Shown here in pieces: positions 1 to 30,168 of a stretch of 64,000 nucleotides of DNA. Under the pieces are notes generated by a model. The model was not told the DNA's origin and did no database searches. It was given only the letters and a program-made list of their open reading frames with translations. Within the stretch, counting starts at the first letter, position 1. Each line of letters starts with the position of its first letter. The DNA comes from Rhexocercosporidium sp. MPI-PUGE-AT-0058 (Eukaryota > Ascomycota > Leotiomycetes > Helotiales): NCBI GenBank assembly GCA_020746875.1, contig JAGTJL010000002.1, positions 2,852,001-2,916,000 on the forward strand, in the 5' to 3' direction. The position numbers and the translations under genes are program-made.

Positions 1-183
1 TGAGTGCTCGAGCTGTACATTACAATGTAAACAGCTATGCCTTTGTAGGAATGCGACCCATCATCTGATCAGCAACGAGAGCTTTAGGTACCCGTCACAT
101 GTGCGTAAAGTAATAACCTCTGAATACTTCGAAAGATTACAAGCCGTTGCCAAGTGAATTAAACAAGATTAAAAGTGGAAACG

Positions 184-191
184 TGACGTCA
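184..191. promoter_or_regulatory. CRE/ATF-like palindrome upstream of the 2EXR gene
   Basis: TGACGTCA, a perfect 8-bp palindrome matching the binding site of CREB/ATF-type bZIP factors, lies about 210 bp before the start codon at 401. Nothing else in 1-400 was recognised. An 8-mer can occur by chance, so a regulatory role is inference. Confidence 0.3.
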
Positions 192-400
192 TTTAATTTC
201 TTATTCTCCAAAAATAAATGGAAATCTTTGTATACCTTCCCTTTGTAGCTGCGCAGCCGTTACTTCCTGCTTCTTAAGACCTAGCTCGAAGAATCAAACT
301 CTCTTTAAACGAGATTTAAACGAGAGACTAAAGAATCAACTATCGTTCTCTTCTTAACTTTAACGTCACTCCGTTTATCGTCGAAAATACCGACTCAATC

Positions 401-1108
401 ATGGCTACCTTCCACCCTTTCCCACGGCTCATCCCTGAACTTCGCGCGCAGATCTGGGCACTCGCAATAGAAGATCGAGTCGTTAAGGTTAACGGATTTA
501 GTTCGTCGAGTAGGTCAGGCTATTGGTCACCTACCTTACCACCAGCTGTAACGAGAGTATCCCGAGAATCTCGTGAGCTTTGCAGCTACCAAAAGTCGTT
601 CGTCTCTTTGTCTGGGTCACGATATATTTGGGCAAACTTTGATTACGATGTTATTTATATTATTAGTGAAATGCTCTGGTGTCATATGGGCCTCCCTATC
701 AACGACATCAGGCATTTGAGAATCGAGCTTTTAGACGTCACAGATTATGAAGAAGAAGATTGGTGGAATCATCATATAAAAACTTTCGACGACTTTTCGA
801 AGCTCGCTCGTGTCGATCTCCTGGTGGTCGAGGACCTGCTACACTGCGCGCGGTACATCGAAGATGGATACTTCGGATCGTGTCCCAAGTCGAATGTGAG
901 GATCATATCTAGGGCAACGGGGGAGTGGCTTGATCAAAAGACGATGGGGACGTACCAGGACTGGTGGGACACCGATAGAGGAACGGGGGACCTCGATTCT
1001 ATAATGAGGGTGGTGCATGACGAGGATGATGAGGATAGGGAGGAGAGGATAGAGGATATCAAGCAGTTTCAGATGCCTTTGCCACGACTTGATTTGAATC
1101 TTCCATAG
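401..1108 (+). CDS. 2EXR domain-containing protein
   Basis: Uninterrupted 235-aa ORF starting at ATG 401. Residues 5-60 fit the 2EXR domain, which is named for its two E-x-R motifs and is expanded in ascomycetes: an F-x-x-F-P start, then PELRAQIW, ending in a VSRESREL segment. The biochemical role of this family is not known. The C-terminal part is strongly acidic (many Asp and Glu near residues 200-222). No signal peptide or membrane segment is visible. The ORF ends at TAG 1106-1108 and no intron is needed. It is one of the few undamaged genes in the left accessory region. If the Starship reading of this region is right, it would be cargo. Confidence 0.8.
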   Translation: MATFHPFPRLIPELRAQIWALAIEDRVVKVNGFSSSSRSGYWSPTLPPAVTRVSRESRELCSYQKSFVSLSGSRYIWANFDYDVIYIISEMLWCHMGLPINDIRHLRIELLDVTDYEEEDWWNHHIKTFDDFSKLARVDLLVVEDLLHCARYIEDGYFGSCPKSNVRIISRATGEWLDQKTMGTYQDWWDTDRGTGDLDSIMRVVHDEDDEDREERIEDIKQFQMPLPRLDLNLP

Positions 1109-1476
1109 ACTCGTTGGTTGCCTGGAAAGTAGGAGATGGTTTAGGGGACTGAAATGGGGGTGGGCAGAGCTTGAAATAGGAGGTCTTTGTATTAGAATAG
1201 AGACGGATTTTGGTGGAATAAAAGGAATTAGATCTCAAGGGGTCAATACTTCTACTGCAATGTTTCTGGATCTTCTCTCCCCGTTCCTCCCCCCAACCGC
1301 CGCCGCTCGATTTCGTCAAAACGGACTAGGGCTTCCCATGTCATTGGATTTGGTTGGTCAAAGTATCGTATCAGACTCCTTATACTAGAGCTGTACCACT
1401 AAGCCTGCACTGTCTCCGAAACTCATTAAAGGGTCCAAGCCAAGTTCTTCGGCCTCCCCCACTAGGCGGGAGATCG
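1109..1476. other. intergenic, no feature recognised
   Basis: Lies between the 2EXR stop and the degraded 3' end of the patatin gene. Coding-like minus-strand sequence may run on from the phospholipase C-terminal region into 1385-1476, but I could not match it to the family. Confidence 0.4.
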
Positions 1477-2481
1477 TCAACAGCGTTCTACAAACACCTT
1501 CGCGGTATCCTCTGTCTGCGTCGCAATGCCGACTAGAGTCTCGGTGAAGAATTTGAAAGACCCCACAGCGATGGGCTTCTTCCCAGGATTGCCCGTCCCA
1601 ACCGAGATAACGCATTTCAGCAGCACACTCAATTCCGTTTCGCCGCTGCTACACCAGATGTGCTGGGCCTCGTTCTATAGTTGCTCGACTGGGTTATTCG
1701 CGCCTAATCCTCCGTCGACAAATTTGCGCCCTCGTTGCCCGATTATGACTGGTTCGAAGAAGCTGGTGGCAGCTGCGGTCGCTCGTGCAGCTTCGCAGAT
1801 GGTAGCCGGAGTGTTGTTCAGCGCGTCGTCGGAGGTATAGGATCGCAGGAGAACAGTGGTTGTGATTTCGAAGGCTTTCGCGCACACAACTCTGCAAACA
1901 CGTTAGATCTAGTACTTTAGTAAGAGATCCGCATACACTTTGCATCTCTCATTTCCATCGTTAAGCAACGCATCCTCTGCCAAGCCACGCTTCTTGAGAA
2001 TTCCTTTGATGTATTGCTCTAGTACTGTAGAATCAAACCGGCCTTTGATCCTTCCCCACCGATTCACAGGCAACCCTTTCTTTCCGAAGATTGTTTCGAA
2101 CATGCTGGTATACTCCTCGATACATTCATCGACATCCATTTCAAGGCGCCCTAGCATAATAGCAATGATACTGGAAGGTTAGCTTGGCCTTCCTTGGGTG
2201 GCAAGAGCGTACCCTCCAGTACTCGTTCCACCGATCAAGTCGAAAAGCTCGCAGGGCTTCACCACGGCCTGGCCTTCCTTCACCCGCTCCGCATTCACCT
2301 TGCCCATCAGTGCCTTCAATATTAGCAACGTCGAGAGCCCGCGGATTCCTCCACCATCTGTATTTGCGTGTTAGCACATCGAAGCCTGGGGGCAGTTATA
2401 CCGACCAAGTGACAGTATGCAGAGCCCATCACGATCGAGAGGGCTTTCTGAGGCCACCGGCATGACCTGTGCCTGCGCCAT
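1477..2481 (-). pseudogene. patatin-like phospholipase, broken by an in-frame TAG
   Basis: Patatin-family lipid acyl hydrolase with a Ser-Asp dyad. Start ATG is 2481-2479. Joining exons 2406-2481, 2213-2357, 1937-2170 and 1891 downward across GT-AG introns of 48, 42 and 45 nt keeps one frame. That frame carries the oxyanion motif DGGGIRG (split by intron 1), the nucleophile elbow GTSTG (just before intron 2) and the catalytic DGG in KFVDGGLGANNP. At 1675-1677 a TAG stands where the following residues (NEAQHIW) suggest the family's Trp. After it the frame stays open, with family-like residues, to TGA 1477-1479, and the remaining C-terminal domain is not recognisable. TGG to TAG is the kind of change RIP makes. 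Patatin-like genes are common accessory genes of Starship elements, and this one shares its strand with the DUF3435 recombinase at 7.7-10.3 kb. A truncated but catalytic protein remains possible. Confidence 0.8.
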
Positions 2482-3130
2482 AGTTGTTACAAGAACAGAA
2501 CGCGAGGAAAGAGAAGTTTGGCACTCTTCGACAGTGATGCTGCGCAGCAACTGTTGCAAGGCTGAATCGCCTGACCTAAGCTTTGCAGACTTCCCTACAT
2601 GTTATATGGAAGGTACCGAATCGCGCTTGATTGGGACAGTGTAATAGCAGACAACGGGATAGAGATGGAAAGATGTTTTGTTTGGGAGTGGTCACAGCTG
2701 AGTCTCGTCGCGCCGCCTTTCTTGATTGAAGTGGTCTCGATGACAGATGGGATTCGAGTACTATCCTTGTTTACGATCGCTGTTGGTACTGGTCCCTGGT
2801 GGGGCTGGCGGATCTCCCACGATATGTGGAGACAGCCGGCGCGAACCGCCAGAACTAACTTCGAGCGCTTTAGCACAATTATGTCCCTGCAAGTCCCAAG
2901 GTCGACGGCTGGATACACTTACGCGACCGGGACCCCTTATTAATCCACCATGATGCCGTCAAGAAGAGGGCATGTCTTTACATGAAACGTATATTTGATT
3001 CATTATTAATCTTTAATTAGGTTCTGTAAACAATCAGTTGGTTACTACTTCTCTTTTGAGCGTTCAATTGAAAGGGTCTTACCGTTGTAGCCACTACATC
3101 ATGTTATACGAGAGATAGAGGGCAAGTCAC
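2482..3130. other. intergenic, no gene recognised
   Basis: Short ORFs on both strands overlap one another (2599-2943 plus, 2595-2918 minus), and none shows a domain. Presumably holds the divergent promoters of the patatin gene and the gene at 3269. Confidence 0.4.
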
Positions 3131-3193
3131 CCACATGCGAAAAAGTCGAGTTCGGAGGCCCCTGCCCACCTGCGAAAAGTCGAGTTCGCAGGT
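3131..3193 (+). promoter_or_regulatory. tandem hairpin-forming repeats in the promoter of the 3269 gene
   Basis: Two copies of a roughly 36-bp unit lie just upstream of the TATA box. The second is a perfect 9-bp inverted repeat, ACCTGCGAA (3168-3176) and TTCGCAGGT (3185-3193), with an 8-nt loop AAGTCGAG. The first (about 3131-3158) has the same loop and imperfect arms. This could be a paired dyad operator or a transcribed stem-loop. Confidence 0.45.
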
Positions 3194-3203
3194 CCCCGCA
3201 ACC

Positions 3204-3210
3204 TATAAAA
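3204..3210 (+). promoter_or_regulatory. TATA box of the 3269 gene
   Basis: TATAAAA lies 59 bp before the ATG at 3269, immediately after the hairpin repeats. The spacing would give a 5' leader of about 30 nt. Confidence 0.5.
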
Positions 3211-3268
3211 TCTGGCGCCACCCCGCTTCTCCCATCTTCATCATTAACAATCGCGCCTTCAAGTCATA

Positions 3269-4494
3269 ATGGAGATCCCACCCTACCTGCAGGAGCGAAC
3301 GAATGATCTACTTCAAGAGCTCGAATCCGAGCTAGGTAAGGATACCGCGAATCAGTTTCTTTCAGCACGCTCTGCGATATTTTATGGAAATAACAGCCTT
3401 CCTGGCATTGATCCCCGAGCAATCATAGGTCCTGATAACCCTGGTGGAGACGACTCTTGGAAGTACATCTTTACGCAGAATAATGACTACATCCCAGGAA
3501 ACGTATCGTTATCGTCGAACAATGACCTGGATGAGATCTTAGACTACTCGCTGGAGTCAACCAGGAGCGTCGATTACGGGTCGAGCCCTCCTCTGGATGA
3601 CAAGGGTTCCCACGACCCGGACCTCCCCATATGCAAGCGCTGTGACTGCGAGAAGTGTAAGAAGCTCCGGGAGCGTGCCAAACGAAAGAGAGGCAAGACT
3701 GCCTCCATAGCGACAGTTGCTAGCCTGTTTCCCCGGCCGGACCTCATTAATATCCTTGACAAGTATTGGGAGATCTTAAAAGTCCATGGCCTCTTCGCAG
3801 ATCGATCGCGCGAGGCTTTCCAGTGGGCCAATGCAAACAACGGCCCGGTTCATGTTCAGCGTCGCGAGTATCATTTAATCTTGCGGAAGTTAGAGAAGAA
3901 TAATGACCTCCAGCAGTGGCGTCGATTTGTAGCAGAATACCGAACCCTCGAAGGCTACAATGAGTTTCACCGACAAGCAACCAAGCAGCGGATCAACGGC
4001 ACGCAGGCTCGCGGAAGTGGTGAGAATGATAACAACAAAGCCCACAAAGAATACGTGAAACACATGTTTCCAGACGGTGATCCAGAAACTCTGTCAGCAG
4101 CCCCGGCGGCGCTCAAAAAGGACCTCCAGCTTGCCCGGCGATGGGCAATCTGAGTAGAAGGTTACGATGAAAAGAAAAACGGTCTGGTACCTGGTTTAGG
4201 CGTCGGGATTGGCCTGCTTGTTGGGCCAGAGATCAAAAAGAGAATGTGCGAATAAATCTAATTGGGGATTATCAAATGATTACTTGTGCTGACGTGTGAT
4301 CTAGTTACTCGACTGCCGATTACGACCATGCATACCTCAAGTCACTCCTCAAGCACATTCACGAAACGCGTCCGAACATTGTAGGCATGTGCCGGATATT
4401 GGAACCAGTTGCTATGAGCCTGGTCAGAAACCATCAACTCAGCAGTCATGATAATTGGGATACCATTTCGAAAGAATTAGGAGAGCATCTCTAG
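3269..4494 (+). pseudogene. unknown protein with a Cys cluster; probable nonsense codon at 4151
   Basis: ATG 3269 opens a 294-aa ORF ending at TGA 4151-4153. I do not recognise the family. Visible features are a CxxCxCxxC cluster near residues 122-130 followed by a Lys/Arg-rich stretch (possible metal site plus nuclear signal), and a charged helical C-terminal half. Past the TGA the same frame stays open for about 30 codons with a Gly-rich hydrophobic stretch (GLGVGIGLLVG). It then meets a GT-AG intron (4246-4304, branch-like GCTGAC) that joins in phase to a further 62 codons ending at TAG 4492-4494. The simplest reading is a gene of about 390 aa cut by one nonsense mutation. Alternatively the 294-aa protein is complete and the tail is chance. 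It has a strong TATA promoter and lies between the patatin and recombinase relics. Confidence 0.55.
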
Positions 4495-5482
4495 CCATCG
4501 ACACTGCGGCGTCGTCTTGGAGACGGCAGCACCTGTAGAACATCTATAGTAGATATGCCCATAATTGTTCCTCCGTACTGCACTTCCCTGCATTAATCTG
4601 CTACGATTACAGTTAGAATATAGGAATTGGCCGCGGAGAGGAATAGAACAGGGCCTCGGTCAAAACGAACGAAACACTAGTTTTGACCAAAGAAACAAAA
4701 CTAGATTCTATAAAGGATCTTGCAGCAACACAACACCGAAGTTCCGAGAGCTTGGTGGGGTGTAGTGGTGGTCGTTATTTACGGACGTGGGTGGGTGAGC
4801 CAGATCAGTCTAGGACTGCGCATTGCCGATCTCAAATTGCGTGGTTAAGGATAGCTTCACGTTGTGAGGTCGTGCTAGTGAGCTCTTACGCGGGGTTGTG
4901 GTGAAGGCGCCTGGCGTCCAGCATCGATCGACCTCTTCTGCTTCTCTGATCCCAGTTCTTGATTCTCTGACTCCATCCACCCTTCCCCCCGTTTTGGGGG
5001 GCCTTTGGGTCGGTCATCATGGCACTGCCCATCGTTCCTGCTCACATACATCCCCATCCCCATCCCCATTCCCATTCCATTACCACCCTCCTTCTCCCTC
5101 TCGACTCAGACGAGATCCTGCTCTCAGCTACCCCGCCACAGGACTGAACAATCCTCCTCCCTTCGCAATAGTCGGCAGGCACTAATTATGCCACAGTCAA
5201 TCCGCGGCTGCCCCCAACCTCCAAGCCGAATCTCGCACGCCTCAATGATCGTATTGAACGTCGTCGTCCTAAATCGAAGCTATTTGTTTGTAGCGAATTC
5301 ATACCCTGAAGCGTGGCGCCTTTAGTTTGGTGCTCCTCTAGGCGTGGAAAACGAGTTTGTCGATGAGACTTCATGAGTTGATAGACTTGATGCAGGACGC
5401 CATGTATTTGATTAAGAAGAGGGCAATTGAATAAAGGTATCGCTTAGCAGACCACCTCGCCCCACAGTGACCACTCAACTCA
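4495..5482. other. intergenic, with a short CCCCAT tract
   Basis: Short overlapping ORFs only, none with a recognisable domain. A small (CCCCAT)n-like tract lies at about 5051-5079. Confidence 0.4.
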
Positions 5483-5720
5483 TGTACTTCTAATTTAATT
5501 GTACTTCTTTTTTAATTGTACTTCTATTCTAATCGTACTTCTAACCTAGTTGTACTTCTGATATGATTGTACTTTTGATATGATTGTACGTCTGATTTGA
5601 TTGTACTTCTGATTTGATTGTACTTCTGATTTGATTGTACTTCTGATTTGATTGTACTTCTGATTTGATTGTACTTCTATTCTAGTTGTGCTTTTGGTTT
5701 AATAGTACTTCTACTTTAAA
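5483..5720. repeat. 17-bp minisatellite, array A (14 units)
   Basis: Fourteen head-to-tail units of exactly 17 bp (238 bp). The central units are identical (TGTACTTCTGATTTGAT) and the edge units diverge at the third to last positions, the usual pattern for an array that expands in the middle. Each unit carries a GTAC core, altered in a few edge units. See array B at 7050. Confidence 0.9.
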
Positions 5721-7049
5721 TTCACCTCCCTGTGGCCTGGTATTTTCACGTCATAGATATGACATGGATTTATATCATTTGCACATTTTAGATTCTATAT
5801 TATTCAAAGGCTACGGATATAACAACTAGCAATGGAAACCCATGAATATATTCTGTCACAGTAACCAGTTACAGAGGCAAAGTCTAGACAGTGAGGTTTT
5901 TTGGCGGGTTACCATCGCCACCACGCTTGAAGTCTATCTCCACACTAGGTCGTCACCTTCCCCACCTCGCTTAGCTTTGTTTTGAACGATGGTCACAGAA
6001 CCACACCGCCCCCTCACAGACACCCGGGAATACTACCAACCTTCATTGTCCAGTAGAGATAAAAATCACTCTCTATTTGCCATAATCTCCGTACAAACTA
6101 CCTAAGAGCTCGAATCTTGAGAAAAGTAACCCCTCCTAGACCCTCTTCTTTCCGCGGCTCCCCTCGCTCGACTCAATTGTACGCTCAACCCCTGCCTCCC
6201 GCATCCGGCTTTGGCTCAAACCGAACTCCCCTTTTAGAAACTCAACTATTCGTTCAAACCTTCCATTAACCATGTCCGACCAAATACTCAGGCAAAGATA
6301 GTCCAGCTAGATCTTCTTTGGGTACTTTCTCGTTTGTCTGGTACGGCGATTCGCCATGTCTTCAGGAAGTATGTTTTTAGGGAGTGGATAAGTATTTTGC
6401 TAAACTGTATTAATATTGCCGTATATCCCAAATATGCAGCCAGTCCACTTACTAGCTCTGCGAACGAGGGTTGCCATGATATATAGTCCCTGGACCTGTA
6501 CGTAGTATATCGGCCATGCTTGCAGATGATCAAGGCTACGTTGATACTATCAAATTCCCCTAATTCAAATGCCTTCTTAACCAATGTGTCCTTCCTCCTA
6601 TTTATTCCCTCATTCTCTCTCTTTCTTCTCCACCGCTCGCCTTTGAGTTTAGCGTTTGTAGTATCCATATGTGTCTTCATACTTAATGTTCAGGGTCGTC
6701 AGCTATGAAGGATGCCATACTGGTGGCTACAATGTGAACTTATAGTCCAACGTGGAGGAGTTTGGTTCTTCACCACTAAAGCGACGAGGAGTCACATCCG
6801 AACCTACCATCCTCCAGCCGACCCTCACCATCTAGTGGTAAGACCCTCAGTATCTAGGTGGTTATACACCATCTGAGTTGCAGGTTACTTTCTAAGTGGG
6901 GGTATGGGGTGGGATTACCGAGATCGCAACCATCAGGAATCAGAGGGATGTGACCTACTCATTCACTTGCTACGTCACTAAGCCTCTTTTCTGCACAAGT
7001 AGTGTTTATGTAGTCCATGACCATCTCGATATTGAGGGTTCGACCACTT
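5721..7049. other. region between the minisatellite arrays, no gene recognised
   Basis: A short start-like segment at 6271 (10 codons, then stop) and a minus-strand ORF at 6288-6680 show no domain. Pyrimidine-rich stretches occur around 6120-6260. No repeats comparable to the flanking arrays were seen. Confidence 0.35.
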
Positions 7050-7381
7050 GTACCGAAAACGTTTTTGTACTAATGATTTGATAGTACCAGTAAATCGTTA
7101 GTACTAATAATTTGTTGGTACTAGTAATTGGTTAGTACTGAGACGAGTGCTGTAATGCCCACGGTGCTGTAAGATATACAGTACCGTATAGAGGACGGTA
7201 CCGTAGGATGAACGGTACCGTAGGATGAACGGTACCGTGGGTGTTGCGGTACTGTGAAGAGCACGGTACCATAGGATGAACGGTGCCGTGGGTGATACGG
7301 TACCGTAAGATGTACAGTACTGTATGGAGGACGGCACCGTGAGTGTTACGGTACTGTGACGAGCACGGCACCGTTTGCTCG
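7050..7381. repeat. 17-bp minisatellite, array B, with palindromic cores (about 20 units)
   Basis: GTAC-type tetramers recur every 17 bp at 7050, 7067, 7084, 7101, 7118 and 7135. After a 12-bp step they continue at 7147, 7164, 7181 and so on to 7368, a few drifted to GTGC, GTGCC-type or GCAC cores. The first units (GTACTAATGATTTGATA) match array A at 14 of 17 positions, so both arrays are one family. From 7161 on, each unit has a 10-bp core around ACGGTACCGT, itself a palindrome, separated by 7-bp spacers that recur in a partial higher-order pattern (AGGATGA, GGGTGTT, GAAGAGC and variants). The minus-strand ORFs across this array are by-products of the repeat. Confidence 0.9.
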
Positions 7382-7682
7382 TAGAATTGAAAACCATCAG
7401 CATCCTGCGGAATAAGGGCCATTCACAGGGATGGAGAGGTGATTGGGGAGAGATGATTGGGATGAACATGTAGCTTTTGCAAATCACCCTTTTGCGATAC
7501 GAAAAAAAGTCTTTTATTTCAATCAATCTCACCTATGCAACTGAATCCCCCTTTAATCTATACATTCTAGAAAATAGTGGAAAGGAAATGTCTATGTAAT
7601 ATATGAGAGCACGAAAACGAAAACAAAAGACAAAAACAAAGTCGGCTAAGTAGCTGTACGCTTTTCGTAAAGCATCGAAGGG

Positions 7683-10346
7683 TCAAGAAACCGTCCCGTG
7701 GATGCTCTTTGCGTGATTCTGGAGATGCTACTTGTGCTGCAGCCCCATTCGACAGACCTTGCACTGGAGCCGATCCCCTTCTTTAATATGGGCCAGATGC
7801 TTCCGCTTAAAGTGCTTTGTTAAGTCTCCCGGCCTGGCAAACTTATAAGTACGCTTTTCGAACGGCAAGCTCTACTCCCTTAAGTAGAGGAAGCAGGTAG
7901 TAGTTCGCTTCTCTATAAACACCAGTAGCATAACGTCCTTCAACGCTTACTTTTCGGCCTCCGCGGCTGCTAGCTGCGGATCGGTCTCCTTCGCCGGCTT
8001 CGGGCTTGCCTTCTACGTAAATGGCCTCTCACGTAGCATAGCAATAGCTCCGCCTTCTTGGAAGTGGCAGTAAGCCGCGACGGCATCGATCGCGTCGTTG
8101 CGTCGGCGAAACTCCTCCATTACGATTATCCCTAGCAAGGTCATCACCGTCTCGGCTAAGCGCTTCTATATTAGAGGCATCTCGTCGATAATATATACAC
8201 TAGTACTAAGGTCATTGCAGAACTTAAACCCAGCGAGCTACAGCTCGACGTCGTTCACAAGGTGTTTTATATCCTACTTGTCTCGGAGCTGCTTGAGTAG
8301 CGCAGCCCTTAATCGCTGCCGTAGATTAACAATTTCGCTATTAAGCCTTTTATACTCCGGATGTTTTATTATCGCGCCCTTATAGCGGTAGTTCTATTTC
8401 GCGCGTAGCGCGAGAAGCTAACGGACTCGGCGATTTTTATTAACGGAACGGGACTACTCAATCGTAAAGGCGTGCGGGCGCCCGGGATCGATCTATCACG
8501 TCATCCGAGAGGCAGCACGCATGAGGTCCTTCTAGGGCTCATAGCTAGACACGATAGCCTGGATATCGCCGGACCGCCGCGGGAGGTAGTATTTAATAAA
8601 AGTGTCGACACTCGCATGTTATAATATTATATTCTGGAGGGCGTCGGTCACGTCACTTATGTCGGGGTGGTCAGCTCTCGACTATAAATATAAGTGTAAA
8701 AACGTAAAGTACTCACCGCTTTAGTTAAATTCATTCGCAGCATTATAATAAAGACAGTATGGGCGTGTGGGCTATAGGAGCCTAAGGATAAGACCGATAA
8801 CTTTTATTAGCGATAAAAGGGTTAGATATATAAGAGGCTTGTATAGCGAGATTTCGTAGCCGTACCCTGTCTTAACCGACTTCTTAAAGATGGGGACATC
8901 GAGCATACTCGGCTTAAAGAGCAATTCTAGCTATTAATAGCTAAGTCGGATATTTAGTCCGCTTAATTATAACGTACACTTAAGATTTGGAGCCGCAAAT
9001 GCAGTGTTAGCAAAGATAAGGCCTAAAAGAAAGACATACGGGCTAAGGATTAGAAAAAGGTTAAAGATAATCTTAAGGAAGACGAATTTAACCTTAAAAT
9101 ATATATGAGTAAAGCTTAAGCAAGAGACGATCAAGAAGGAGACGTGGGAAAGAGTATAGGCTACTAAACTTACGCATCCTTTACGCCGAGGAATTGCTTC
9201 GTAAATTCGCATATAAATTTAATTAGGATTCGATGAGGACCGCTACTCGGGTCCTAAAGGAGGGTCACGATAATATCTTAGTAGCGGAGCTTAAGGAGCG
9301 CTAAAGGGCGGTTTTTAGAAAACCCAGCGAGTTAATAGAATAAAGTAAGCTAAATGCGTTGCCGGCCGTACGTAAACCGCTTCTTCGTTATAATTAAGTT
9401 AATCTAGAGGTATTCTGCGAGATCCTCGACGTACATTGCCGTCTTCTCGCGCTTCTTCGTCGATAGGCGGTACTTTTTCGCTAGTTTCTTAAGGACCTGC
9501 AATAAAAGACGTTCGTCAGCTTCTTAACTGCGATCCTTTAGGCTGGATTGAGGGAGTAAACGAAAGAGCGGTACTCACTCGGTGTATATGACGGTTCATC
9601 TTCCCCTTAATCTTCTCCTCAGTTTCTCGTTCGTGTACGAGCCGGAAGACCTTCCAGTATGTCCCGAGGGTGCTGGCAGACTTAATATCGGTAAGCCTCC
9701 TCCCACCCTTCCCCTGACGTTAATTTAATATTTATTCGAAGAAGGCTTTAAAGGTACGGCGAGAGATAGCTTACATTAACCGGGCAGGATCCTTTCGTAT
9801 ATATTCGCAATACCTTTAAAGCGAGTCAAATCAGCGATTCGATAGCAATAGACGGCAGGCAAAAAGGGAATAAGGTACACACCGCTAGAACTGCCCCTTA
9901 ATCATATTAAGGAAGAGGAGACTATTATTACTATAATCTTCGTCTTTATCCTCGGATTCGTCGGAGCTGTCGTCTTAATCGAGATAATACTTTGGCGGGT
10001 AAGCGTTCTCTTCTCCAGTAATCCAGGCTAGATTTGTCTCGTTATCTCCGTTAATATCGGCATTAACGTCCATTAGCACGGCGCTAGTATAACCCTCCTT
10101 ATAAGTGAGCTACTTTAGATTTATTAGGTTTAGCTTATCGTCTCCGTCGACATCGGTATCGGTATTAGCATCCGTCGGCTCGGTATCGACGTCAGTCTCC
10201 TCTTGCTCATCCCTTGTATTAAAGCAACTCTCGATGTTTAATTTATCGCTATCGGAGGACAAGGAAGAGGAGGGAGGGCTTAGTGTTAATTGTTGGCGAC
10301 GACGTATTACAAGTGGATCAATCGAAGGAGACGGCGGCGATGACAA
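7683..10346 (-). pseudogene. RIP-degraded DUF3435 (Starship captain-type) tyrosine recombinase with a C-terminal zinc finger
   Basis: Reading the minus strand through many TAA/TAG codons gives an almost continuous protein of up to about 890 residues, so the length is right for the family. In order: a Ser/Asp/Glu-rich N-terminal part (10.35-10.1 kb); a central block at about 9.5-9.2 kb with YVEDLAEYL, a GRQRI segment and NRPLALLKLRY, the segment that carries the first catalytic Arg of tyrosine recombinases; then FLGVKDA and SPYVFLLGLIFANTAFAAPNL near 9.2-8.97 kb, typical of DUF3435/'FluG-domain' proteins. The C-terminus (8.0-7.68 kb) has LPFEKRTYKF, GDLTKHFKRKH and CKVC...HLQNHA, a C2H2-like finger, ending at TGA 7683-7685. 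Stops sit where CAA, CAG, CGA or TGG are expected, as RIP produces. The start codon is lost: a TGA lies just above 10,346 and no ATG is clear. Confidence 0.8.
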
Positions 10347-10790
10347 TCAGAAGCAAGGTCAAAGGTATGAAGGAGGAGCTTACTATCCAAGTAATAGCAG
10401 CGGAGGAGTAGGGGAGGAGTAGAGCGAGGGGGAAGTGATAGTTGAGTATGCGAGGTCTAAAGGAAAGAAGATTGAGAAAGGAGGGAGAAAAGACGAACTA
10501 ATATAAGGGCTGCCATCTTAAGTCACGACGAGATGGAGGGCGGCCGTTTTCTATTCTCCTTCTTAATAGGTATTAAACGAGGATAAGGGAAGCGGTTCTC
10601 TAAATAATGACTTGACCCACTCGCTCTTGTTAATATTCTTGTAGCAGAGTAAGATCCCAGGGCCATGCCGCCTTAGCCATGAGGTACGCGAGCGTTAAGG
10701 CGGCGCGAGATTTTAGTAAGTCGGCTGCAAAAAGCAGCGATCAAACCCCCCGAAAACAGCAGCCAGTTTGCCGTTTGGTCGTTAAATAGA
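10347..10790. other. less mutated stretch upstream of the recombinase; sharp border near 10,785
   Basis: CpA and TpG are common here (for example the CAGCAGCCAG area at 10,756), unlike the DNA to the right of about 10,785-10,790, where they vanish. A 9-bp inverted repeat GCCGCCTTA / TAAGGCGGC lies at 10,667-10,675 and 10,696-10,704. This is the expected position of the 5' end of a captain-bearing element. Confidence 0.45.
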
Positions 10791-11162
10791 GTATTATATT
10801 AATACTTATCCCGCTTATAAGAGTCTTTAAGTATAAGTCAAATCTAAAGGAATACATTTTAAAATATAAATCCCGAATTATTATATAAGGTAATCTTTAA
10901 AGTGAATTAACGATCGTCTTTACATACGCTAATACGCTTTTAATTAAATCTTTCTAAATCGTTCTAGCGCTCGCAACTTATTTTAACTTAAAAGTTAAGT
11001 GCTCCGACGTAATTAACGCGTTTATTAACGCTCTTTAAAATATAAACGGCGAAACCGTATATTATAAATTCCCTTTAAGTTTTAATAAGCCTAAATATAT
11101 ACTATAAGTTAATCGCGCTTTTTACGGGATACGTGACTTTCCGTACTTATAATATAAGCATA
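10791..11162 (+). mobile_element. Ty1/Copia reverse transcriptase, left part (RIPed)
   Basis: Plus-strand translation through stops gives the start of a Copia RT: RVFKYK, KYKSRI, then DVINAFINAL, FNKPKYILQVNRAFYG and RDFPYL. The copy begins abruptly at about 10,790, so integrase and gag are missing from this side. It is interrupted at 11,170 by the MULE and resumes at 13,517 in the same frame. Confidence 0.8.
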
Positions 11163-11170
11163 TTAATAAA

Positions 11171-13516
11171 GGAGACAGCTAAATCGACACACGGAAATAG
11201 TTAAATCGACATACGCTAAAAATATATTGACTTAGCGAGTGTTATCTATTAACCTCGCTATGCTATACTAATTTGTATTACGTGGCAAAAGAGCCTTATA
11301 TATAGCATAAATGTTCATAATTATATAATAACCCCTGGCAAAGAATGAAAATTAAAGTTATTTAAACTACTTAAGTAAATATTATTATTATTATTATTAT
11401 TACTTTTACTATTATTATAACTTTTATTCTTCGACTTTATAGTCCCGCGCCTCTTACAGCGATTTATAGCGACGTTGCTAATGCTTTTGCTATATTCCAG
11501 GCGCATGCTAAAGCTAATAGTTATACTCTCCGGCAACGGGATTTAAGGCTATTCCGTATATTATTTATTTGCGATCGCGTAAGTAAACACGACGCAAAAA
11601 GAAAGTAAAAAGATATACACTCTTTTAAGAGACGCTAGAATATAAGTTTAAAAAAGTATAAATGTTTAATAAAAGTTGTTCTTATATAAGATAAAGTTTT
11701 AAGGCAATAAAAAGTAAAGGTCTTAAAGGTAATATATAATTATACGGCCTCTATAGATTTTATAACTTATTTAGTATATAAAATTACTTCTGCCCTTATA
11801 GAGATTCGTGCTTTTATTAATACTTTAGTTAAGGCTAGTCTCCCGAATACATAAATCTTTTAGCCTTATGAAAAAAGAACTTAAGTATTATATTAGTTTT
11901 TAAAAATATCTCGAATCTTATATAAAAGAAGCGAAAGAAGTAACTTAATAAGAAGACTTCTATTTAATAGTTTATAAAGGTACTGTCCTTAATAATTCCT
12001 GTCTACTTATTATTAATAAATCTTATAAGAATTATAAGTTAATGATTTTCACCCTTAATATTACCTTTATATCGGTATCTTACAACGACTCTTCTTCATT
12101 TATTTTACTTCACTCGAACTTTAAAAGCAGTATTTAGATATTTTATTCTTTAATTATATATATAAAATAAACCGATTTAATATACCGTTACTAAATATAT
12201 ATAAAATATTAAGGAATAATATAATAATTTAACTTAGATTAGTATTTTTATTAGGGGAAATATAAAGAGATTATAATTGGACTATTATTTAGCTTCGTTC
12301 CTTAATACTTAAGAACACTATTATAAAGCCAGTTTTTATTATAATAAATAAAGAGCTTACTTTAATAAAGTATTTAAATATATAATTCTTTACTTTTCGA
12401 CATATTCTCTGCCGGTAGCATATTAATATGAATATATTAGCAAAGACTAAGAAGTACTTTTTAAGTCTTATTAAAAGAGAGAATAAGAAGTGGGCATGCC
12501 ATCCGAAGTTCTAGGCATTTTAAGCTATTAGAATATATTAGTAGCTAATATAATAAAGTAGGCGTACAATAAATTACTTAAGGAGATAAAAATCCGGTTC
12601 TCGTTGTAGGCAATAAGTTACTATAAAAGCACTTAGCTCTTATAGAAGAATAAGCTAATAGCTTTTTAGGTCGATTAATTAAATTACTTCGGGGTCACTA
12701 TTACGAGCCTTATTAAAGGTTATTATATTACTTTAAAGTTATATTTATAATATATGCATACAGACCTTAAGAGTGTATTCTTTAAAATATAACTCTTTTA
12801 GACCGCTTAATATACCGGCATTTATATAGTTATTACATAGTAATAATTACGGCCTAAATACAATATAAATACCCCTCTTTTTACTATTATACTTTAATTT
12901 ATTTATAGCCATACCCTTTTAAGGATTGCTTAGGAGGAGAATAAGCTCCCTTATTAATGGCCTCCTTTAAATAGCTATATATATATTATATAATAAGCCT
13001 TTAGTTTACCTTATTAATATATAATTTATAAGAGAAAGCAAGAAGGCGGCGTAATTCTTTTAAGCGATATTTATCTTTATTAATATTATAATAAGCTTAT
13101 TTTAAGTGCTTTTCTTAAGCCGCTATTTAATCCTTAGCTTCTTTTACTGTTTATAACTGCTTTCGCAATATAAAGGCTTGAGCTTAGGTATCGTGATTTA
13201 TACGAGCCTAATACTCGTCGCAAGGGGGCTTATATATAAGGCATTTCATTAGTTTATTAAATAAATAGTATTAAAGATACTACTATAATTGCTATAATTA
13301 TAATATAACGATAAGTAATTAATAGTATTAAGGTATATACTTAGGATGTAGACTTTAAAGCAGATATGATTTTAATAAGCTAATATAATTTCAATAATAT
13401 ACTATACATAAGTATTTATACAAATTCTGGTGGTAATAAATGCATACTTTATTTTCGGCTCGCTTGCTTAGCGTATGTTGATTTAGCTATTTCCGTGTGT
13501 CGATTTAGCTGTCCCT
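11171..13516 (+). mobile_element. Mutator-like (MULE) DNA transposon, RIPed, inserted in Copia pol
   Basis: 2346 bp, with terminal inverted repeats of about 45 bp (left 11,171; right end 13,516) whose intact form, seen at 17,335, begins GGGGACAGCTAAATCGACAC. It is flanked by an exact 8-bp duplication TTAATAAA (11,163-11,170 and 13,517-13,524). Taking out the element and one duplication restores Copia reading phase, which confirms both ends. Plus-strand translation shows a FAR1-like N-terminus (AIFQAHAKANSYTL, then FICDR and HDAKRK) near 11,440-11,620. MULE-transposase pieces follow: IYKINRFNIPLLNI near 12,160, HINMNILAKTKKYF at 12,419, then a CHPKF segment. Many stops show it is dead. An ATT microsatellite lies at about 11,381-11,405. 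Confidence 0.85.
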
Positions 13517-14592
13517 TTAATAAAACGTTAATAAATTTAAGGTTAATTCCATATTCAAAGGAACCGCATATATTTATAAACCTTAATTATAAAATCCTTA
13601 TTCTCTTTTACGTGAATGACATTTAAATGTTTTATTATCGAGACGACTTAAAGCTCGGATAAGATTTTATTAAGCAATTAAATTAAGCGTACGACTTATA
13701 TAATCTTAAAAATATTAAATAATTCCTAGGAATTAAAATAATACGCAACAGAAAGCGTAAGACTATTTCCTTAATTTATAACTAATATATTAAGAAAATC
13801 ACTCGAAAATTTAAATAAATTAATAAGAGGTGTCTTATGACACCGCTCTCTTAAATTAATCTTATTAAATATAAAAGACAAGTTTTAAAGAAATATATTA
13901 AAGTTTATTAAGAAAAAATTAAGTCGGTATTATATATAGCGATTATTATAAAATTAAACGTAACCTTTGCAATCGCTTAATTCTTATAGTTCGCGACAAA
14001 TCCTAGTCTAAAGTATTTTATAATTATATATTAACTTATTCGCTACTTATTTAATACGCGCTTTTTAGGGATTATATATAAAAGTAATTTAAAAAAAGCG
14101 CTTTATATTATTTTAAATATATTTTTTATAAATAACGTCGAAACTCAGAAGTTATCTTAAGATTATATAATTTTATTATTTAGCGGGCTAATAATTTAAA
14201 AAGCATTAAGGTAATTTATAATTATTACGTCGATTATTAAAGCGGAATTATTAATATTAAAATATACTAGAAAAGAAGTTATAGCTCTTTAACGATTCTT
14301 TTAAAACTTAACTTTTAATATTAATAAGACTTAAGAGATTTTCTATAATAATTAATAAACAATTAAATTAATTATAAATAATATTAAGAAGATTACTATT
14401 AAGAAGATTACTATTAAGCTTTATTATATAAATATTTAAAATATATAATTTAAATAAAAATATATTTATAGATTATTTAAAATAATATATTTTTTAATTA
14501 TTAATATATTTATTAATAAGTTCATAAAGAATCTGTCTCGCTAGAAATTCGAACTTTTTAAAGTACTTTTAAACTTTAATAATTATTAATTA
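13517..14592 (+). mobile_element. Ty1/Copia RT and RNase H, right part (RIPed)
   Basis: Continues the Copia protein past the MULE: KEPHIFIN, LFYVNDI (the RT active-site DD changed to ND), YHRDD-like YYRDD, a FLGIKIIR segment, ITTSIIKAELL-type RNase H, and the C-terminal NLSR*KFELFKVLL. Stop codons interrupt it throughout. A recognisable 3' LTR was not found next to it. Confidence 0.8.
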
Positions 14593-23300: not shown

Positions 23301-25689
23301 AAAGATTTGAGTAAAAATAAATGTTTTAAAGTTCGCTATTAATAAAATTTTGTCTTAACTCTTCGGAGAGGGTGCGGAGGCTCGATGGCACCTTATTACA
23401 TTTTATTTAAAGAAACTCTCTCTTATTAAGTAATAGTATAAAGTTTATAACGGAGAGTTAATAATAATAATATATACATTTAAATAATAAAGTTAATACC
23501 TTTAAGGCGCTTTTAATATTATAATAATTTAAATAAATTATTATAATCTTAAATATTTTATAATAAAACAAAGGCTTACCGGACGGCAAGCAAGGTAAGC
23601 TAATAAACTAACTGAATTCGATTTTATTATTAAATATTAAACTAAGGTTATAAATCTTATTAATAAGCCTTTATAAAGACTTAACCTTAAAGACTCAGAA
23701 CTTAATCGAGGTAAAGACAAAGAAGAGGAGTAGTTATCGACGTTATATTAAAAGCTACGTTTAATTACGATATTATAAAAAAGAAGGCTTTTATTAATAG
23801 CATTTTTAAAGTCGGGGCTTAAATAACCTTATATTAATGAGTTATTAAAGCTAAATTAAGGATTGTTTATAAAGGATTTATAAGGCAGCGAAAAGTAATT
23901 AAAAGGGGTATAAGGGACCCCCGACGGGTTTATTATTAATGTTATTAATTATAAACAATATATATTACGGCGAATAATAATTATATAATTATAAACTAAA
24001 ATAATAAATAACGACTTTTTAAAACCGATTTAAAATATAATCCTTAATTTATAAAAAGTAAATCCTTTTATAATAAATAAGACGTACGAATCGATTCCGA
24101 GGGGACGTCGAGCTAAGTCCGAAGGACACTAAAAGATGTGCGAAAATAAACTATTATAATATTATAATAGGACTTATATATTATTTAAGAAATCACTTTA
24201 AAGTGAAATCTTAAGTGTTAATTATAATAATATCGTGATAAGACACTTTAGGTTCCGAAAAACCTTTAAATTGCTTTTAAGGAAATACTTTTAGTAAGGA
24301 TTATATATAAATATTAAAAAGTATATAAGTACTTACGTAAAATATTAAAAAAAGAAATTAAAAAGGCACCGACTTTACGGCGAGTTAATCTTGTTTTTTA
24401 TTCTTTTAAAACTTTAAAAAGAAATAACTATAGATTTTATTATAAACTTACTATTAAGTAAAAGAGTAAGTCGAGTGTATATTTTTATTTTTATAATCGT
24501 CGATCGATTTATAAAGTTAATTTAATATATCCCCGTAATAAAGACGATTATTATATTCGAGCTAGCCGAGCTTTTTATATAATATATATATAAGGACTTT
24601 AAAGGCCTTAAAGGTATTACTATTAATAAAGGCTTTATCTTTATAAGTAAGTTTTAGTTTTTAATAATATTTTACTTTTAGGTTTAATGCCGACTTAATA
24701 CCGCATTTTATTTATAAATTAATAGGCAAATCGAACGGCAAAACTAAGTCTTAAAATTTTATTTAAGGATATATTATAATTACCGTTAAAATAATTAAGC
24801 CTTTAAATTAGCCTTAGCGGAATTTATATATAATAATTTAGTATATATATTTATTAATTCGATACTTTTTTAAATATTATATGAGTTTAATTTAAAGTTT
24901 AATTTAAACGTCGAGGACGACGTTTAAGAAGGAGGGGCATTTATTATAATTAAGAGAATAAGACTCTTATAATAAAAAAGAGAAGTATTTACGGAGAAGC
25001 TTTGAATTGCTTTTAAATCTTATAAAAAGTTTTATAATATTAAATATAAAAAGATTAGGTTTTAAGTTAAAAATATAGTTTTATTAATTATAAAGTACTT
25101 TTAATAATTAAAACCTTCTTAAAAGCTTATTAATAAATTTTTAAGGCCTTTTAAAGTTAAAAGAGTTATTTATAATTATAATTAAGTATATTAGCTCGAA
25201 TTACCTCCGACTTACCGCATTTATAATACTTTTTATATATTATTTTTAAAACCGTAGTAAGGACGAAACGGAATCGAAGTTAAACCGGAGGTAATTTAAG
25301 GTTAAAAATAAAAAGAGTTCGAAGTTAAGTTTATTTAAGCTTATAAAAATATAAAGTAAAGTCGCTTATATTTAATTTATTAAAAGAGTTATTTTATTAT
25401 AAATAATACTTAAGAGCTTATAAGTCATTTTATATACGCTAAAGATGCGTTATAAGAATACTTAAGGAATATATTAAAAAAAAGGAAATCGGAATTATAA
25501 TAAAAGTTATAAAAATAAAAAGATTAAAAGTAAAAGTTTTTATTTAAACCCCGAAGGGCGCCGAAGGCAAAACAAAAAAGCCTAAAGGTATAAACCGTAA
25601 TATAATAAAAAGCTTAAAGGCGTTATTTATAATTAAAGGCTATCGCTAAAGGAGCGGAGACGGCGGCGGGCCTGAAGATTTTCTTTTAT

Positions 25690-25798
25690 ATTTTTATTTT
25701 TATTTTTATTTTTATTTTTATTTTTATTTTTATTTTTATTTTTATTTTTATTTTTATTTTTATTTTTATTTTTATTTTTATTTTTATTTTTATTTTTA

Positions 25799-25829
<31 letters not shown>

Positions 25830-26143
25830 TTTATTTTTATTTTTATTTTTATTTTTATTTTTATTTTTATTTTTATTTTTATTTTTATTTTTATTTTTAT
25901 TTTTATTTTTATTTTTATTTTTATTTTTATTTTTATTTTTATTTTTATTTTTATTTTTATTTTTATTTTTATTTTTATTTTTATTTTTATTTTTATTTTT
26001 ATTTTTATTTTTATTTTTATTTTTATTTTTATTTTTATTTTTATTTTTAATTTTATTTTTTTTATTTTTTTTTTTATTTTTATTTTAATTTTTTTTTTAT
26101 TTTTTTTTTATTTTTTTTATTTTTTTTAATTTTTTTTTTTTTT
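25690..26143. repeat. hexanucleotide (TTTTTA)n tract inside Gypsy-1
   Basis: About 360 bp (roughly 60 units) of near-perfect TTTTTA repeats to 26,049, with one 5-bp phase break near 25,825, then a degenerate T-rich tail to about 26,143. It lies between the integrase end and the 3' accessory region of the retrotransposon. Confidence 0.9.
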
Positions 26144-27310: not shown

Positions 27311-28610
27311 TCAAACTTAAAAGAATCAATTAGAAAGCTAATTAATAAGTGCGGGAGAGCCCCTTTATATGTATAAGTCATGTGACGTGGCGCTGATGCA
27401 GAGCAGTCGTCACAATAAATATATTATATAAAACAGTTTATAAAACAGTTTATAAAATAATTAAACGACGTCCGACGGATTAATCGCGATATAATATTAT
27501 ATATTTAACGTAATAATTTAAATAACCGCGTTAATTTAATTAATTAAACTCATTAATTAAAATACGGCTATTCGACTTACCACGGCTTAATCCTTACTTT
27601 AAGCGACGCGAAGGCGTACTAATATATTATTAATTAAAGTATTAATATCGCGGACGCTATTATTAAAAAAAGGAATAATTATTATATATATATTTATTTA
27701 TTTTATTTATACGGAATCGAGCCCGTAATATAAGAAAGCCGAGGCTTTTATAATATTAATAGAATTAATCTTACTTATATATTTAATTACGCTGGCGTTT
27801 TACTTCTTCTTATAAGTAATTCCTTTTATATATACGCTTATTTTTTAGACTTCTTTAAAAGCTAAATATTGATTTTTTAAATATATTTACACTGAACCTT
27901 TACGAAGCTTTACTTACCGTGAATTCCATCTGACAAGTTATATAGACCTAGAAATCCCCCGTATAATAGAATTATCATTTACACTAAATCTCTTTTTTTC
28001 ATTACGTGTACGTATATAAGAGCTTTAGTATAAGTATAATTTTTCTGAATTGTTACGTGCGCTTATTAAATTTTTTTAAAAAGAAAGACTTATAATACAA
28101 GATTTTTATTAAGAGTTATAAATCGGACGTATACGTTAGCGGCCGTTAAAGCGTATCGATTCCTAGTTATAATTCTTACGTTTTAAGCGTTTTAAGTTAA
28201 ATATAAGTAAATTATTACGTTTAACCGCTTAAGCTATAGATTATACTTTAGCTTAAGTGCGATTTATAACTTAAGCGGTTAAATGTCATATATAGCCGAT
28301 ACAGCTTTCATTCGCTAAAACTAGTCTTACTCCGCTGCCAAAACTTTTGCTAATGTAACCCTATTATAATACCAATACCTGCAAGGCTTTACTCACTACG
28401 ATTATTCAATAATATCTTACGAAGGTTGTACTTTGTATACAGTCGACGAACTAATTAGCACGTGGTCAAAATCAAAAGAATCAGATAGAAATTAATTCAT
28501 TGCAGTGGCCTTTCATCAGCCAATCCCATCGCTACTTTTCCTGGCTCTGCTGAAGCGCCAGGGAGGCAAATCTATTCTTCTATCGCTGAACCCCTCTCTA
28601 CCCCTTCCTT
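27311..28610. other. AT-rich flank between Gypsy-1 and the SDR gene
   Basis: 27,311-27,412 keeps CpA/TpG and is the original target side of Gypsy-1. From about 27,420 to 28,340 the DNA is again RIPed with no readable family. The last 200 bp are the 3' flank of the SDR gene. Confidence 0.4.
28220..28283. repeat. 14-bp perfect inverted repeat
   Basis: TTTAACCGCTTAAG at 28,220-28,233 and its complement at 28,270-28,283, 36 nt apart, inside RIPed DNA. Possibly the ends of a tiny TIR remnant or a stem-loop. Confidence 0.5.
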
Positions 28611-29348
28611 CTACTTGAGTGGTGCACCTCCATTGGTGCTCACGACCGAGCCAGTAGCGTCGATATTCTTCATCAAATAGACAAACGCTTCGGCGACATC
28701 CTCAGGCTTAGCAGGCTTGCCAAGGAGAGAGTTCTTGCTGGACATATCCCGCATGAAACTAGCATAGTCACCCCACATCTCCGTCTCGGTGGAACCAGGA
28801 GCGACGACGTTGACGCGTAAGGGCGCAAGGTCAACAGCCAGGCATTTACCGAGGTTGTGCAGGCCAGCAATGAAGGCTGACAGGACGCCGTAGCCCGGGA
28901 CAGGTTTCTCAGCAATAGCGCCGCCAGTGAATGTGATGCTGGAGGTGTAGCTGCTCTTGAGGAACTTTGGCGCGATCTTTCCGATCAAGATGGGTACGAT
29001 GACGGGCAACCTAGCCGCAGCAATGGCAGTAGCTACGTCCGTGTCGGCTAGTGGAGGAGACTGGCCTTTGCCTGCAGTGCAGACGACGTGATCAAGGGAA
29101 CCAGTCTTGGTGGCCTCAGTGAAGAGCTTTTCGAGTTGGGCTTCGACGTCATCACCGCCGAGGTTAACAGTGTATCCAGTAACATGAGAGTCACCCTTCA
29201 GGCGTTTGACGGCAGCGTCTACTCTGTCCTTGCTGGAAGACGCGATGATAACATTGGCCTTCTCAGCTAGGGCTAGCTTGGCTACGGCAAAACCCATGCC
29301 CGATGAGCCGCCGATAATGAGAATGTTTTGGCCGGTGATGGGAGCCAT
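28611..29348 (-). CDS. short-chain dehydrogenase/reductase (SDR), atypical active site
   Basis: Intact 245-aa single-exon ORF starting at ATG 29,348. It has a Rossmann fold with the dinucleotide motif GGSSGMG at residues 13-19, TAGK at 91-94 in place of NNAG, Ser near 137-138 and Tyr153. The catalytic motif reads YGVLS, so the Lys of YxxxK is Ser157. The following LAVDLAPLRVN and VVAPG segments are standard for SDRs, and the length is usual. Without the Lys the usual oxidoreductase chemistry is doubtful; a group of fungal SDR-like proteins is known to vary here, so it could use another base or be non-catalytic. Substrate unknown. Base composition is normal, and the gene lies between two RIP-saturated transposon blocks without any stop of its own. 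Confidence 0.88.
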   Translation of the reverse strand: MAPITGQNILIIGGSSGMGFAVAKLALAEKANVIIASSSKDRVDAAVKRLKGDSHVTGYTVNLGGDDVEAQLEKLFTEATKTGSLDHVVCTAGKGQSPPLADTDVATAIAAARLPVIVPILIGKIAPKFLKSSYTSSITFTGGAIAEKPVPGYGVLSAFIAGLHNLGKCLAVDLAPLRVNVVAPGSTETEMWGDYASFMRDMSSKNSLLGKPAKPEDVAEAFVYLMKNIDATGSVVSTNGGAPLK

Positions 29349-30168
29349 TTTGAGGATCCGAAATCTGTGATGAGGTGGTGGCGTATAGTAGCGCTGGCTG
29401 ACTTTCGAGGGAAGAGTCGTGGTTTAATTTTTTAGTGGAGTTTGAAGGGCTTGGTGTGCTCGTAAGAAACTAGTCGAGGAAAAATTTAAAGGTGACTTGG
29501 TATTTACTCTTTCTTTGTCCTTGCTCATCAAGTGATTGTGATCACTTAACCGGGGATAACGGTGTTTAGGATGGTGATAATGGACGGCATTAGAACGTCA
29601 GCCTTGCGGAGTAACTATAACTACGCAATTGGCCAACTCCTTTCTTAAAACCAACAAACACTGAACCTGGAAGATTAAATGCAGGTTAATCATTATTGGT
29701 CATAAGTATCCATCTTTCGAGGCCAAGGGGAGTGGGCGTCTGTGCAAGCCTTACAGGCCGGGCCCCATTTTTGTGGCTTTACCCCTTTACAGGTGGTGGC
29801 GGGAAGATCCGTGAGATTGGACGCTAATCCAATCCACTTCCCCTTGTTTTCACATCCGCTTGTTTTCACATCACCATGTAGCAATGCAAACACTGGGGAT
29901 GATTGATACATTTCACTCTTGCGGTCCTCACAAGGATTTTGGCCAGTTTTTGTTTATCACGATGCACCGTGATCTTCGGGGCAGATTGAAGGGACTATCT
30001 TCTTTTTCTTTTTTTTATTCTGTCTTTTTCTGCGGCACAGGTAAGTTTGGTGGAGCGCTGAGACTCACTTCTACTTCTACTCCCTGCGCTGCATGAATAC
30101 AACGTACAAATAACCCATAGCTCACAGCCTCTCGGCAAACTTTTGCCAGCCGGGATCTTGCTCTAAGT
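29349..30168. other. promoter side of the SDR gene; no other gene
   Basis: Normal composition. Short ORFs at 29,693-29,911 (minus) and 29,860-30,096 (plus) overlap and show no domain. The compositional border of the next transposon stack begins near 30,170. Confidence 0.45.

Follow-up and report, generated by a model that had tools for sequence, protein, structure and literature searches.

The question raised by this locus is whether a decayed DUF3435 tyrosine recombinase gene, lying just inside a sharp sequence border, marks the head of a Starship transposon, and where such an element would end. The locus lies in a stretch of 64,000 nucleotides from Rhexocercosporidium sp. MPI-PUGE-AT-0058, referred to here as the window (contig JAGTJL010000002.1, C12:2852001-2916000), and the genome searched comprises 62.7 Mb in 60 contigs. 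Our analysis strongly suggests that a block of 21,148 bp represents one complete Starship insertion on the minus strand, which begins at window position 10,790 and whose remaining 10,358 bp lie to the left of window position 1, as far as C12:2841643. The Starship is nested in an old Copia retrotransposon; its captain is mutationally dead, and most of the carried genes have apparently been spared. It is a further Starship of an already known kind. An earlier, sequence-only reading had proposed the head of a large Starship that continues past position 1; this interpretation was largely right and the continuation has been located, although the element measures 21.1 kb rather than being large. The features on which the argument is based are the following.

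C12:2841643-2862790, minus strand: the whole Starship, 21,148 bp, 5' end at window position 10,790.
Window 1-10790, minus strand: 5' half of the Starship, delimited by the shared 5' end, the second border and the contrast with the flanks in repeat-induced point mutation (RIP) and guanine-plus-cytosine (GC) content.
Window 10661-10790, minus strand: conserved terminal sequence at the 5' end, about 130 bases long, which occurs also without a captain, e.g. at C4:502841-502968 and C3:1603573-1603701.
Window 7687-10318, minus strand: captain gene relic, with approximate limits taken from the open C4 paralog; DUF3435 domain at 8070-9430.

The border at position 10,790 is the end of an element, beyond chance, as had been supposed in the sequence-only reading. 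A search with window 10790-7600 (minus strand) as query returned 46 places, many of which represent fragments of common copies. In 14 of these places, including the window, the match begins within the first 20 bases of the query, and in 13 of the 14 within the first five. With the query extended by 309 bases outside the border, nine other fetched copies reached the 5' end, and in none of them did the alignment continue outward for more than 18 bases. Similarly, a 23-base pattern near the 5' end, allowing up to three mismatches, matched the genome 14 times and its reversed control not at all, and the GC content changes at the border from 0.42 to 0.28. Besides the two captain-less places listed above, C34:860632-860717 and C8:1412699-1412764 also match only the first 70-130 bases, with no captain match thereafter; such places may be solo ends or may belong to elements that have a different captain.

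The captain is the first gene from the 5' end and points inward, its coding start lying about 0.47 kb inside the element by comparison with C4. Two stretches on the minus strand match PF11917 (DUF3435): window 8070-9086 with 187.4 bits and 16 internal stops, and 9119-9430 with 82.6 bits and nine internal stops. Some of the stops in the two stretches may be intronic, as the domain scan is blind to introns. Both peptides quoted in the sequence-only reading are found within this relic, NRPLALLKLRY at window 9281-9313 and FLLGLIFANTAFAAPNL at 8982-9032. Genome-wide, DUF3435 gave at least 99 exon-level matches at E <= 0.001. In many copies the homology stops near query base 3104, and the last open frame of the C4 paralog ends at element base 3097; therefore, the part shared among copies consists of the 5' end and the captain.

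Outside the border lies the DNA into which the Starship appears to have been inserted.

Window 10791-10794, minus strand: target-site residue directly flanking the 5' end, which reads ATAC in the element's orientation.
Window 10791-11162, plus strand: Copia fragment cut by the Starship, resuming at 13,524 past a nested element with terminal inverted repeats (TIRs).
Window 11163-13523: this nested DNA element in the right-flank Copia; its inverted arms, each about 57 bases long, lie at 11163-11219 and 13468-13523.

A search with window 10791-11170 gave 40 scored matches among 108 candidates, and several copies of this flank family overlap RVT_2 (PF07727) matches, for example at C12:685776-686465 and C3:2311058-2311750; on these grounds the flank is Copia, as had been read from the letters alone. 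The eight longest open frames listed for the fetched copies did not look like Copia by eye, and the identity rests on RVT_2. The 5' junction point is uninterrupted in all 19 fetched Copia copies other than that of the window. On the element's strand, with a slash marking the junction, the Copia consensus reads AATAC/TTAAATTA and the window AATAC/TCTATTTAACG.

In the 50 kb of sequence fetched to the left of the window, a piece of the same Copia family occupies C12:2841008-2841642 and ends there, which places the second border at C12:2841642/2841643. This piece is the upstream part of the family and has the same orientation as the right flank, so that the two flanking pieces are collinear and ordered. 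Here, the consensus of the 19 copies reads TTATAC/TCAGGCTA and the occupied locus TTATAT/TTAAGCTA. The prediction that the other part of the cut Copia would be found at the second border thus holds for family, position and orientation, but the two halves are not contiguous. The distance between the two junction points is 865-909 bases in 17 of the 19 copies, most commonly 897, and the remaining two copies have 1216 bases or are rearranged. The first approximately 320 bases inside the 3' end have one paralog, C16:461197-461516, with 82% identity, whose homology breaks off at the same point, the next bases being TTAC. When up to three mismatches were allowed, a 23-base 3' pattern matched only the C12 end and C16, and its control gave no match. 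The large variable cargo is bounded by this second end at C12:2841643, and homology between copies stops at the captain end.

The uninterrupted Copia copies carry a WTAC(N7)A site at both borders of the element. In the four of the 19 copies that were counted, one strand has 16-20 such motifs per 3.38 kb, or one at about 0.5% of positions, and the presence of the motif at both borders is unlikely to be due to chance. On C4, C5 and C3, the DNA outside the 5' end likewise belongs to this Copia family, at different positions, the corresponding empty sites being ATAC/TTTAATATTA for C4, TTAC/TTAAGTTA for C5 and ATATT/CTTTTAAA for C3. Among the four 5' junctions in Copia, including the present one, WTAC is found in three and the full WTAC(N7)A in two. 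Across the 13 aligned 5' ends (window included), WTAC stands directly outside six and TTAT outside two, the latter being the product that would be expected of a C-to-T change in the target.

The sequence common to the copies spans just about 3.1 kb, and Copia is very abundant in the genome (at least 152 RVT_2 matches). It might thus be argued that the locus consists of a Crypton-like unit of about 3.1 kb that comprises only the captain and lies beside host genes, with the rest being host DNA between two unrelated Copia insertions. We consider this highly improbable, as beyond the coding end of the captain (about query base 3104) no shared 3' edge or 3' terminal sequence was seen among the copies, the left border coincides both with a WTAC(N7)A site, of the frequency given above, and with the edge of a repeat that has a TTAC-flanked paralog, and the two Copia pieces are collinear.

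The distribution of mutations also sets the cargo apart from its surroundings. The composite RIP index, computed in 1-kb windows, is negative in all 17 windows of the cargo (-0.89 to -0.01), +0.28 in the window next to the cargo, +0.51, +0.95 and +0.46 over the captain, and between +0.63 and +1.15 in the eight listed windows wholly within the flanks. The decay that had been attributed to the element is therefore borne out for the captain, which is RIP-mutated, and for the patatin gene, which contains stops, but the RIP signature is limited to the captain end. RIP shows threshold behavior. The closest captain copies are 82-88% identical, the two paralogs of the patatin relic share 77-78% of its DNA sequence, and the leftmost 10 kb of the cargo have only 18 matches elsewhere, all short or weak; the pattern is consistent with RIP having acted on the part for which well-matched repeats exist.

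Inside the window, the cargo contains the following features.

Window 5282-7410: repeat with 17-bp tandem arrays (5483-5712 and 7195-7340) and many partial copies in the genome.
Window 4915-5279, plus strand: relic, read by eye, of what are probably the leader and first exon of another captain-type gene, distinct from the first.
Window 3159-4497, plus strand: repeated unit containing a 292-amino-acid open frame (3275-4150); its edge at 4497 is common to several copies.
Window 1487-2847, minus strand: patatin-like phospholipase relic, domain at 1678-2358.
Window 332-1108, plus strand: open frame with a 2EXR domain (59.5 bits).

The patatin domain (PF01734) scores 73.6 bits, contains three stops and lies on the captain's strand about 5.7 kb further in, close to the approximately 5 kb estimated in the sequence-only reading. 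A hmmscan of five single open stretches gave no patatin match, and the domain was found by a six-frame scan of the whole genome, which has 18 patatin matches. NLR, patatin, ferric reductase and DUF3723 genes are named as Starship accessory genes in the excerpted text of PMC12506042. Of these, patatin is present and, as a recurring accessory family, supports the assignment to Starships; NLR, ferric reductase and DUF3723 were not seen in the scanned selection of open reading frames. Beyond window position 1, the cargo continues with GH18, chitin-binding (27.7 bits at a cut-off of 27.8) and LysM stretches and then a WSC protein. From their order and strand, the LysM, chitin-binding and GH18 stretches probably form one chitinase gene, and they may resemble killer-toxin-like chitinases. 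Among the relatives of the 292-residue frame, six of the 34 listed bear organism names, namely Cadophora, Leptodontidium and Halenospora, which belong to the Helotiales.

The plus-strand stretch at 4915-5279 matches the DNA immediately 5' of two other DUF3435 genes (C12:994872-995215 and C1:2718319-2718710). The match stops abruptly, and both relatives run on into coding-like sequence; the stretch may thus be the start of a second captain truncated by the adjacent repeat. Its presence inside the block would agree with a composite origin, in which the 5' end and captain derive from one Starship, another or older element contributed the 3' end and the left cargo, and the two were fused by deletion; the locus would then be Starship-derived without being one transposition unit. 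The 3'-end search, which besides the end itself gave C16 alone, and the lack of any other copy linking these two ends point in the same direction, as does the loss of approximately 897 bp of Copia. Nevertheless, the 17 cargo windows are not interrupted by any RIP-rich stretch, and both ends are oriented to Copia as a single insertion predicts. A composite is therefore rather unlikely in our view, and we favor a single complete Starship.

It should be noted that several observations weigh against a single insertion. The sole relative of the 3' end, on C16, has no captain of this family beside it: the 5'-end search gave a single place on C16, a piece of 194 bases at a distance of about 109 kb from this paralog. 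The approximately 897 bp of Copia between the borders are absent from the occupied locus. The direct repeat is imperfect today, with ATAC outside the 5' end and ATAT outside the 3' end; the consensus of the empty Copia copies has ATAC at both junction points. Neither WTAC nor TTAT stands outside five of the 13 aligned 5' ends, one of which, on C10, has diverged at its extreme end, and the empty sites of C4 and C3 fit WTAC(N7)A only in part. A comparison of the first and last 60 bases gave no indication of a TIR, the observed score being reached by 752 of 2000 shuffles. TIRs are given for 18 of 20 A. fumigatus Starships in the excerpt of PMC12153272; in that of PMC12134995 they occur in some Starships and are not obligatory. 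Finally, the analysis covers a single genome, and it was other Copia copies, not the allele of a second strain, that supplied the empty sites.

Among known Starships, the closest likeness is to the Hephaestus family, such as Nebuchadnezzar of Aspergillus fumigatus. According to the excerpted text of PMC12153272, these elements likewise possess a 5' DUF3435 captain transcribed inward, a TTAC(N7)A-like target (TTAC(N7)A being canonical for Hephaestus) and a cargo of variable genes, and 21 kb falls inside the size range of 16,357-443,866 bp given for Starship type elements; TTAC also appears as a consensus target in the excerpt of PMC11623449. In contrast to the Hephaestus elements as described there (PMC12153272), no TIR was found here, the captain is broken by RIP and the target is often ATAC instead of TTAC. 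The element may be close to Hephaestus, a likeness drawn from the target motif. Gnosis h1 of the Prometheus family in A. fumigatus (PMC12153272, Table 1, as excerpted) also carries genes named GH18 and lysM in its cargo; however, it measures about 82 kb and has another target motif. A RIP signature is shared with the type A Starships of Gaeumannomyces tritici, in which, in the excerpted text of PMC11905480, it is element-wide with an average composite RIP index of 0.2-0.3, whereas in the present element only the captain end shows it. In the open-licence literature, with subscription journals outside that scope, we found no paper on Starships in Rhexocercosporidium.

Based on these features, a course of events might be proposed. 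A DUF3435 tyrosine recombinase, encoded by this or by a sister element, would have linked the two ends of the element to a WTAC(N7)A site within one copy of Copia. The approximately 897 bp may have been lost by later recombination between the 3' junction and a second WTAC(N7)A site, or the deletion may already have been carried by the target copy. RIP, which targets duplicated DNA, would then have hit the part common to the sisters, the 5' end and the captain, and largely spared the single-copy cargo. The element would now be stranded unless a sister captain, such as that on C4 with its stop-free domain stretches, acts on its ends. More generally, it might be speculated, albeit tentatively, that this Starship family reuses one Copia family as a landing pad, that its recombinase can also delete the target between two WTAC(N7)A sites, and that RIP selectively disarms the shared captain end and so turns mobile cargo into resident genes. 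The locus thus offers a small Starship with both ends resolved in one genome, by means of empty sites in repeat copies rather than a second strain, and the contrast between the RIP-mutated captain and the spared cargo suggests a testable route to the fixation of Starship cargo.

The sister captain on C4 (550899-553994) has three DUF3435 stretches, all free of stops, and its 5' end likewise lies within the Copia family. Further sister elements lie on C5 and C27. For the C4 paralog, 120 homologs were listed, and none of the names inspected refers to a Starship. A protein of Trichoglossum hirsutum is 92% identical (362/393) to a metagenome captain close to this captain family (P0053, P0035). Trichoglossum belongs to a different class of fungi, and the match may reflect horizontal transfer or contamination of that assembly.

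Elsewhere in the window, an island of normal GC content (0.42-0.49) at 28001-30000 lies within an AT-rich stretch and contains a short-chain dehydrogenase frame (28611-29423, minus strand), and a long array with a 12-base period occupies 25583-26143 and beyond, also in this AT-rich stretch.

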